Assembly (NCBI GenBank): GCA_023150835.1
Contig: JAKLKB010000227.1
Span: 1-5,199 of the forward strand
Origin: Myxococcota bacterium
Lineage (GTDB): Bacteria > Myxococcota_C > UBA6777
Reading direction: 5' to 3'
DNA length: 5,199 nt
Shown here one piece after another: positions 2,385-4,847 of the stretch. Position numbers and translations under genes: made by a program. The notes beneath the pieces were generated by a model. The model had not been told where the DNA came from and did no database searches. It saw only the letters and a program-made list of their open reading frames with translations. The number at the start of each line of letters is the position of its first letter. The first letter of the stretch is position 1.

Positions 2385-4055
2385 ATGGACAAGAAAGCGT
2401 TGATGGAAGAGTTGGAGCAGTTGGGGAAGTTGTACCAAGCGGGGGTGTTTTCACAGGCGGAGTTTGAAGCGCAACGAGCGGAGTTGTTGGAGCAGTTACG
2501 GTTGTTACGCAGTGGGCAGACGCCGATGCCGTCCAAAGGTGGTGGAAGTGGACTCAGCCAAGTACACGGTGCGGATGTGCTGGCAACGGGATTTGTGGGA
2601 GGGCAAGGGCAGACGGGGCTGGGTGTGGGTCGGGTGGTGGGGGAGCGTTATCGGTTGGTGCGGAGGTTGGGGCAAGGTGGGATGGGCGAAGTGTGGTTGG
2701 CCGAAGATATCCGCTTGGGTCGGGCGTTTGCGCTGAAGTTTTTGGCCGATGCGTTGGTGGGTTCAGCAGAAGCGTTGGGGCGGATGCACCGAGAATATGA
2801 AGTGCTCGAAAAACTGTCGCATCCGCATATTGTGCGCGTCTTCGATCTGGATCAGGACAAAGACAGCGGGCGCTGGTTTCTGCGAATGGAGTATGTGGAA
2901 GGCGGAGACTTGGGGAAAAAGATCGCGGTGGTGGCGCAACAAGCCCACCGACCGCTGTTTGGGATGGAGGTGATGGTAGGTTGGTTGGGGCAGCTAGTGG
3001 AGGCGTTGGATTATGCCCATCAACAGGGGATCTTGCACCGCGACATCAAGCCCGCAAATCTAATGCTGACGAGCGATCTGCAGCGATTGAAAGTGATGGA
3101 CTTTGGGATAGCGCGTGTGGTGAGCGGAACACATACGACTCAACACACGGCGATGATGGGATCGATGTACTATGCCGCACCTGAGCTTTTGCGTGGTCAA
3201 GTAGCCACTCCCTCAGCGGATATCTATTCGTTTGGTGTGTTGGTGTACGAGATGTTGACGGGGGAACCGCCGATGGGACATTTCGAGAAACCGTCTTTGG
3301 TGGTGGATGGGCTTTCGGTAGAGGTGGATCGACCGCTGCTGGGGATGTTATCGCCAAACCCGACAAAACGGGGAGAATCGTTGCGCGAGGCGTGGTCGCC
3401 GTTGCGGGATGCGCTGCTTGGAAAAGCGACGACAGTGGTTGTGCCACCCCAGCCCGCGCCAGCATCGCCAAAGATCGAGGTGATCGCACCGCCACCGCCA
3501 CCGAAGATCGCGGAACCATCGGCAGGAGAGCGGCGGGTGTTTCGCGTGGGTGGGGCGGAGTTTGCGATGCGCTGGATCCCTGCGGGGCGTTTCCTCATGG
3601 GCGCAGGAGCCGATGACAAACAGGCCGATGGCGACGAAAAACCGCAACACGATGTGACAATCACGCGGGGGTTTTGGATGGGGGAGGTGCCCGTCACACA
3701 GAGCCAATACCAAACGATCATGGGCCAAAATCCATCGCATTTCAAAAAGGCTGGATCGGATGCACCTGTGGAGCGGGTGAGTTGGTACGATGCTGCGGTG
3801 TTTGCAAACGAACTGTCAGCGTTGGAGGGGCTATCGGCTTGTTTTGTGGGAAGCGGGGAAAAGATGGAAGGGGTGGGGAACAAAGGAAGCGATTACGTCG
3901 GGTGCAAGGGCTGGCGTTTACCGACGGAAGCAGAGTGGGAATACGCTTGTCGTGCGGGTGCGACAACGCCGCGTTATGGAGTGGAAACAGCGGCAAGACA
4001 ACGCATGCTGTGGGGCAAAAACAAGCCAATGCGTGGGGGTTGCACGATACGCTAG
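2385..4055 (+). CDS. Serine/threonine kinase-FGE fusion, truncated by frameshift
   Basis: The frame encodes 556 residues. Residues 1-42 (MDKKALMEELEQLGKLYQAGVFSQAEFEAQ...) form a short helical SHOCT-like domain. The Hanks-type kinase domain spans about 87-346: glycine loop GQGGMGEV (96-103), Lys118, HRDIKPAN with Asp220 and Asn225, DFG at 239-241, APE at 265-267 and ADIYSFG around 278-284. All catalytic residues are present. A Pro-rich linker (354-378) leads to an FGE domain from about 384 (FAMRWIPAGRFLMGA, GEVPVTQSQY, PVERVSWYDAAVFANEL, WRLPTEAEWEY). No membrane segment is seen, so it should be cytoplasmic. After RYG (residue 532) a deletion shifts the frame and adds 24 unrelated residues before the stop. 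The product would keep an active-looking kinase but lose the variable end. The intact form probably coupled variable ligand binding to phosphorylation; this is inferred. Confidence 0.93.
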   Translation: MDKKALMEELEQLGKLYQAGVFSQAEFEAQRAELLEQLRLLRSGQTPMPSKGGGSGLSQVHGADVLATGFVGGQGQTGLGVGRVVGERYRLVRRLGQGGMGEVWLAEDIRLGRAFALKFLADALVGSAEALGRMHREYEVLEKLSHPHIVRVFDLDQDKDSGRWFLRMEYVEGGDLGKKIAVVAQQAHRPLFGMEVMVGWLGQLVEALDYAHQQGILHRDIKPANLMLTSDLQRLKVMDFGIARVVSGTHTTQHTAMMGSMYYAAPELLRGQVATPSADIYSFGVLVYEMLTGEPPMGHFEKPSLVVDGLSVEVDRPLLGMLSPNPTKRGESLREAWSPLRDALLGKATTVVVPPQPAPASPKIEVIAPPPPPKIAEPSAGERRVFRVGGAEFAMRWIPAGRFLMGAGADDKQADGDEKPQHDVTITRGFWMGEVPVTQSQYQTIMGQNPSHFKKAGSDAPVERVSWYDAAVFANELSALEGLSACFVGSGEKMEGVGNKGSDYVGCKGWRLPTEAEWEYACRAGATTPRYGVETAARQRMLWGKNKPMRGGCTIR

Positions 4056-4138
4056 GGAATGTGTGGGAGTGGTGCTATGACTGGTTTGGTGGTTATTCGG
4101 CCCAAGCAGCTACAGACCTTGTTGGAGCAGCTACAGGC

Positions 4139-4240
4139 ACGAGCCGCGTGTTGCGTGGTGGCGGTTGGAACGACAACGCCTACAGCGTGCGGGCGGCGCA
4201 GCGTTTCGACTACGCGCCGTCGTCCCGCTACTACTACTTC
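4139..4240 (+). repeat. DGR variable region, copy 2 (VR2)
   Basis: This is the gap-free counterpart of 325-426. Examples of changed codons, VR1 to VR2: Arg to Leu (4151), Tyr to Asp (4172), Phe to Ser (4184), Gly to Phe (4205), Ser to Asp (4208) and Leu to Tyr (4235). Residues shared with VR1 include RGG, W, AY, VRAAQR, P and GFR. Aromatic and small polar residues at NNC codons are typical of AAC-derived DGR positions. Confidence 0.88.
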
Positions 4241-4270
4241 GGTTTCCGTGTCGTCAGGTCGAGCCCCTAG
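4241..4270 (+). other. Invariant 3' end of VR2, candidate IMH
   Basis: These 30 bp are identical to 427-456 and lie directly after the last variable codon, so the same IMH argument applies. The identity continues well past the stop codon. Confidence 0.5.
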
Positions 4271-4280
4271 TTGCGGTTTG

Positions 4281-4302
4281 CCGTTTTACCGTTTTACCGT
4301 TT
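4281..4302 (+). repeat. Short tandem repeat CCGTTTTA x2.75 after VR2
   Basis: This array is identical to 467-488: two complete 8-bp units and a partial third, 10 bp after the stop. Confidence 0.7.
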
Positions 4303-4306
4303 GCGG

Positions 4307-4320
4307 CCCGAACAATCGGG
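4307..4320 (+). other. Small hairpin/cruciform downstream of VR2
   Basis: CCCGA-ACAA-TCGGG is conserved with 493-506, 36 bp after the FGE stop. It may be the retrohoming-type hairpin of a DGR target or just part of the conserved 3' block. Confidence 0.4.
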
Positions 4321-4498
4321 GGTGAAGAGGAGGGCGGCTTCGTGAACGAATGTGTTGTCCCTGGACAGTGCAGTAGTGTATGCAGTATAGAGTGCGGTGG
4401 GTTCTGATGGGCGTGGCGCTTCAGGACGCAAGGCAGCGAGCTCCGCCGCGCCGCGTCGTGAAGTGTCACGCTAGGCTTGAGGAGCGAGGCGCAAGTTC

Positions 4499-4533
4499 GG
4501 GGGGGGTTAGGCTGGGAGGGTTAGGGTGGGGGG
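4499..4533 (+). other. G-quadruplex-forming tract
   Basis: G-runs of 8, 3, 3, 3 and 6 are separated by loops of 7, 1, 3 and 1 nt. Copy A has only G10, TTA and G4 at the same place (686-702). The 18-bp length difference looks like slippage expansion. Confidence 0.6.
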
Positions 4534-4847
4534 CGTCTGTGGCTGAAGTTGGCGATGATGGGAGAAAACATCGGTGTTCGTGGAGGTTCAAGCGACAGAG
4601 GCGTTGTTTTGAAAAGCGATGTTCTTTTCGCCCTCGCGGGGTCAAGGGGCGACAGTCTATGGCGGGGGTTTGGGGGCAGGCCCCACAGAAAGAGGCTGCA
4701 AAAAGGCAACGCCCCACTTATTCACATTTGGCTCATGTTGTGTTTTGAGGTCTTCTAAGGTACCTCATGAGCGACGTTTTTGATCGAGTGGGTCCGTTCA
4801 AACCAACGCCATGAGAGAGGTATCAAGAGGCAACACTTCTCAGCGAA

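Follow-up and report, generated by a model that had tools for sequence, protein, structure and literature searches.

Soluble Hanks-type kinases with a DGR-diversified FGE-type lectin domain, and an apparently broken member of the family, in a lineage labelled Myxococcota

Among the targets of diversity-generating retroelements (DGRs) in cyanobacteria are proteins that join an N-terminal Ser/Thr kinase to a C-terminal C-type-lectin (CLec) domain, remote targets included (Vallota-Eastman et al. 2020, PMC7517822). The kinase is the commonest N-terminal partner in that group, caspase-like peptidases being another, and both a ligand-sensor idea and a substrate-selection idea have already been stated for these kinase-CLec proteins (PMC7517822). 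DGR targets of a multicellular bacterium have likewise been argued to be antigen sensors in the cytoplasm and periplasm, and those of Thiohalocapsa PB-PSB1, taken as putative antigen sensors, include several cytoplasmic multi-domain proteins, with Pkinase among the domains annotated and with FGE/CLec sensor heads (PMC10907252). A further relative is TvpA of Treponema denticola (PDB 2y3c), which has an FGE-type CLec fold and a C-terminal VR at residues 285-329, and in TvpA-type proteins the variable residues are solvent-exposed (PMC6328139).

The genes described here come from a lineage labelled Myxococcota. The intact ones resemble the cyanobacterial kinase-CLec genes in architecture, being dispersed, with numerous targets in each genome, caspase co-targets and a 3′-terminal VR, while they differ in lineage, in their soluble SHOCT-kinase-Pro-linker form and in the DGR core genes, which we found broken. 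The Thiohalocapsa targets, in contrast, are for the most part conflict modules of the STAND, MoxR-associated and TIR types (PMC10907252), and TvpA, described as a single-domain protein (PMC6328139), has no kinase. As kinase-CLec targets and the sensor hypothesis were both described in 2020, the novelty lies in the lineage; a view of the arrangement itself as unusual finds no support, given how common the kinase is as a partner in cyanobacteria.

The window, that is, the whole stretch of DNA analyzed, is the entire 5,199-nt contig C221 of a 7.56-Mb MAG (239 contigs, estimated 93% complete), and an Rfam scan of it gave no match. As assembled, its kinase gene is an ORF at 2385-4055 (+) that, by translation and Pfam, encodes a kinase, a linker and the N-terminal half of an FGE domain, followed by 20-odd frameshifted residues and a stop, without the VR. 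A SHOCT-like helical segment at the N terminus (2406-2489, +), under the Pfam gathering score here and over it in the paralog on contig C13, precedes the kinase domain (residues 89-301; 2649-3287, +; PF00069, E = 1.5e-48), in whose translation a G-loop (LGQGGMGEVW), the VAIK lysine (ALKF), the HRD motif (HRDIKPANL), DFG and APE can be read. By these motifs and the Pfam match the domain belongs to the Hanks-type Ser/Thr kinases, in line with the original prediction, which had also placed a Pro-rich linker between kinase and FGE domain, as we find in the translation at ~3437-3520 (+). PADLOC matches (PD-T4-6 and other kinases) stem from the kinase fold in general, and we made no defence assignment from them. 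No 19-residue stretch of the product exceeds a Kyte-Doolittle value of 1.28, so that, as anticipated, neither a membrane segment nor a signal peptide is evident.

At the start of the window lies another FGE-VR gene, hereafter copy 1 (1-456, +), of which the C-terminal half is present; its 5′ end is cut by the contig end, and its frame is intact. Alignment of the two window copies shows that the kinase gene (copy 2) has undergone a net 25-nt deletion at 3980-3984 when compared with copy 1 and with intact paralogs, whereas its sister ortholog is in frame at this site. Consequently, the N-terminal part of the FGE-sulfatase/C-type-lectin-fold domain (3567-4001, + by Pfam) ends in a few residues that lie past the deletion and out of the domain frame, and the C-terminal part with the VR continues in frame +2 (3983-4270, + in the ORF list; Pfam FGE match at 3983-4258). 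Because the deletion shifts the frame, the window copy cannot, as assembled, produce a fused kinase-FGE-VR protein. The claim of a single kinase-FGE protein ending in a VR is thus correct as to its parts, including a VR with changes at 20 of 36 template adenines against 0 of 83 other positions, but not as to their union, since the ORF stops at 4055 and the VR is in another frame. The phrase “restored protein” in the original prediction implies that its author had noticed the frameshift; copy 1, whose VR is in frame, went unmentioned there. Programmed frameshifting was rejected, as the missing bases are simply present in copy 1 and the intact paralogs. We left the window copy unmended and drew functional inferences from intact relatives throughout.

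A search of the same genome with the C terminus returned 13 places, one of which is a template repeat (TR; CACGAACCGCGTGAAACGTGGTGGCAGTTGGAACAACAAC...) on the minus strand of contig C185 (L052 9872-9754). Over 119 nt, the VR of the kinase gene (4138-4256, +) departs from this TR at the 20 adenines mentioned above and nowhere else (p = 3e-13), and that of copy 1 (324-442, +) departs at 13 of 36 template adenines and 1 of 83 other positions; for both, the homology breaks off sharply at either end. When the nine VRs of the C185 class are pooled, 129 of 261 adenines are changed compared with 41 of 657 other positions. The kinase-gene VR is therefore a DGR target sequence, with adenine-restricted changes far beyond chance, and the last 119 nt of the FGE domain have been overwritten by adenine-mutagenised copies of the C185 TR. 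Ordinary divergence among FGE paralogs, with no DGR involved, could draw on the RGGSW...GFR pattern that FGE-family C termini share by descent and on the 50 FGE matches in the genome, but the confinement of changes to adenines, the separate TR and the presence of Avd, RT and HRDC genes leave that account almost no chance of being right.

Comparing the two window copies with each other, we counted 7 mismatches in 301 positions upstream of the VR, 21 in 114 within it and 17 in 398 downstream, i.e., identities of ~96-98% outside and ~82% inside, which indicates that the duplication came first and the rewriting of the VRs later. The 3′ flank of copy 1 (457-840, +), near-identical to 4271-4690 behind the kinase gene, carries a CCCGA-N4-TCGGG hairpin, which stands at approximately 493-507 and again at approximately 4307-4321, ~50 nt past the VR, and exists in five copies with differing loops. 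It is a possible homing hairpin, though the stem has only 5 bp and the copies are recent. A second TR, on contig C63, was rejected as the source of the window VRs (16 non-adenine mismatches, against 0-1 with the C185 TR). It fits a target on C204 of the same genome, which we call Sel1-like from reading its repeats rather than from a scan (15/29 adenines, 6/73 other positions changed), as well as a target in the sister species G001 that combines caspase and FGE, on its contig C12 (15/29 and 2/73). Further VRs of G001 still agree with the C185 TR, showing 0/73 and 1/73 non-adenine changes. Viral contigs were also searched for a template, and none was found in them. On contig C58 (L055 ~13660-13830, −) lies a solo VR, an orphan target-gene 3′ end that is adenine-diversified and has no FGE domain in front.

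Intact relatives of the window gene exist in both species. Kinase-FGE-VR paralogs are encoded on contigs C118 (645 aa), C120 (687 aa) and C13 (707 aa) of the same genome and, in the sister species, on C424, which starts inside the kinase; in all of these, though not in the window copy, the VR is in frame at the gene end. An apparent ortholog of the window gene, on sister contig C314, stays in frame as far as its contig end. The family thus consists of soluble Hanks-type Ser/Thr kinases that end in an FGE-type C-type-lectin domain. The proposal that a soluble Hanks kinase bears an FGE/CLec domain diversified by a DGR is borne out by these relatives and by a structural match to TvpA that includes the VR. 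The dN/dS of the window gene against paralogs and relatives is about 0.13-0.25, in kinase and FGE domain alike, showing that kinase and lectin scaffold are under purifying selection; changes in the VR, for their part, are confined to adenines of the template. Such dN/dS values argue that kinase and scaffold have been maintained and that the frameshift in the window copy is recent.

Membrane segments are not evident in the main subfamily, where the highest 19-residue hydropathy is 1.1-1.35. Relatives on contigs C62, with one predicted segment (hydropathy ~2.0), and C9, with two (2.5-2.8), have the FGE domain placed differently, and a cytoplasmic location would accordingly apply to the main subfamily only. 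The genome encodes many paralogous kinases, six with VRs, and a listing of the N-terminal partners of VR-ended genes gave, besides the kinase, caspase, Sel1-like and uncharacterised regions. The caspase protein of the sister species (G001 C12; L146 4841-6862, −) combines a PF00656 caspase domain with a PEGA-like region and the FGE-VR module. At five loci (L054, L063, L091, L148 and L149), a common N-terminal module (EIRGWLVKGES..GWLGICRILEGLEASE) stands before the FGE domain, several of them with VR-like ends. On C211 (L050 3488-4378, −), the kinase domain has been deleted, and the SHOCT-like N terminus leads directly into the linker, which is followed by an intact FGE-VR. Some database loci that we first read as kinase fusions proved to hold the FGE domain alone, or with a caspase or another domain.

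Structure prediction, for which the FGE domain was modelled on the C424 protein (23 sequences), yielded a pLDDT of ~90 or more over most of residues 270-530; the kinase part was poor (~25-55), and no conclusion was drawn from it. The best match of the FGE model is TvpA 2y3c (Z 34.3, rmsd 1.8, 242 aligned residues, 40% identity), in agreement with the predicted fold, and the alignment runs to TvpA residue 329 and so covers the TvpA VR. By homology to TvpA and TaqVP, the variable residues of the kinase-FGE family would be exposed. Neither of the findings that the original prediction named as counting against it, buried variable residues or a lack of intact kinase-FGE-VR relatives, came up, the former as judged from homology. 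Formylglycine-generating enzymes (human SUMF1 and bacterial FGE) share the fold as well, at Z of about 24-26. In these enzymes a pair of cysteines has a catalytic role, and in an alignment to a true FGE (6muj) the VR stands in place of the stretch that holds them. As this stretch is replaced and no sign of enzyme function is seen, an enzymatic role of the variable FGE domain is unlikely.

A binding role leaves two ways in which the variable face could serve the kinase. We favor ligand sensing; its main rival is that the variable FGE domain picks the protein substrate of the kinase, variants redirecting phosphorylation and limiting cross-talk among paralogous kinases. This proposal, offered as an alternative for the cyanobacterial proteins of the same architecture (PMC7517822), would suit a genome with many paralogous kinases, six of them with VRs. 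Since the VR-FGE module is also found on caspase, Sel1-like and uncharacterised N termini, a head that serves binding or sensing in general accounts for more, and we regard substrate choice as rather doubtful.

The DGR core genes are split between two contigs. C63 carries Avd (NF033474, 9.7e-25), an RT and the second TR, the best PDB match of the RT being 8ub7, “Reverse transcriptase” (5e-34), which we take to be the Bordetella phage DGR enzyme. On C185 are encoded an HRDC protein (4e-18) and the C-terminal 126 residues of an RT; behind the HRDC gene and the RT end lies the TR. Both RT genes are lesioned: in C63 the frame breaks directly ahead of the catalytic MDD, with upstream residues apparently missing, while in C185 the N-terminal part is gone and the HRDC gene runs directly into the C-terminal part of the RT. 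In this genome (93% complete) we found no further DGR RT or Avd, nor did we find any in the four family-member genomes examined, where weak RT matches belong to other RT kinds or are distant. Two RVT_1 genes of the same genome were set aside as non-DGR, one at C183 40643-41464, which adjoins a Cas6-like gene, and one at C85 4035-6200, whose 721-aa product has two tandem RT domains. The sister genome G001 likewise yielded no DGR RT; on its contig C506 (L139 1-560), the HRDC start codon runs straight into a TR, HRDC and RT having been lost, and this TR bears non-adenine changes and a small deletion relative to the C185 TR.

Decay of the accessory gene is visible in the window itself, where the start of an HRDC-type gene (MKVKVFN*SDDEETGGFDSSDLEALGEE; 909-995, +), intact on C185, remains. 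Its junction with an antisense Rpn-like gene recurs in the sister species, upstream of the kinase ortholog, indicating that this HRDC loss predates the species split. The Rpn-like ORF (1010-1945, −), weakly similar to Rpn-family nucleases/putative transposases (TIGR01784, below cut-off), sits between the remnant and the kinase gene, and the order is the same in G001 (L153).

Lesions of this kind could have arisen in assembly, the family being rich in repeats of more than 800 nt in nearly identical copies, with several DGR contigs ending in them and the lesions clustering in the family; the real genes would then be intact. Yet a clean 25-nt deletion with a unique junction and lesions that differ from locus to locus are atypical of consensus errors, and the junction of the HRDC remnant is seen in two independent MAGs, which makes artefacts an improbable source. 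Even so, assembly of repeated genes in a MAG can mislead, and the pattern of RT loss beside selected receptors would hinge on the reads.

If the lesions are real, the DGR may be dead in this lineage, the family a frozen, decaying repertoire and the window copy a pseudogene without a role. The 25-nt frameshift, the lesioned RTs of C63 and C185, the HRDC remnant common to the sister species, the degenerate C506 TR with its HRDC and RT deleted, the kinase deletion on C211 and an internal deletion on sister contig C440 all fit this reading. However, the VRs show almost no non-adenine change, from which it follows that retrohoming was recent; the intact paralogs are under purifying selection; and an intact RT may be missing from a MAG that is 93% complete. 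We therefore treat a mere relic as conceivable, though not as our preferred account. An RT is needed for ongoing DGR activity, not for having been a target. Given that the RT genes found look disabled, diversification may recently have stopped in the sampled strain, or it may depend on an intact copy missing from the assembly. The original prediction of a possible evolvable sensor is thus not supported as regards current diversification: with both RT genes lesioned and a degenerate TR left in the sister after deletion of HRDC and RT, present evolvability is unproven.

Taken together, these results make it probable that the window locus is a dispersed (“remote”) DGR target, belonging to a family of soluble kinases in which a variable, cytoplasmic binding head gates or aims the kinase, and that the window copy is a member broken recently, when the 25-nt deletion parted its kinase from its VR. 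In this model, the FGE domain would act as a non-enzymatic ligand-binding head, its variable residues lying over the site that the catalytic cysteines occupy in true FGEs. Binding of a cytoplasmic ligand at the variable face would switch or direct the kinase, whose output might change through relief of inhibition or by bringing molecules together. The family takes kinase-coupled DGR targets outside the cyanobacteria and, with its soluble form and a variable face expected in the cytoplasm, is a candidate internal sensor open to rewriting.

More out of the ordinary is the loss of RT genes beside recently diversified receptors that are still under selection. It is conceivable, if something of a long shot, that the lineage used DGR diversification to assemble a repertoire of soluble receptor kinases, repeatedly lost the RT and kept the kinases under selection. 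Recurrent RT loss would offer a natural setting for examining whether a diversified repertoire remains of use without its mutator and, if this is true, such a “frozen” repertoire would represent past targeted diversification turned into fixed inheritance.
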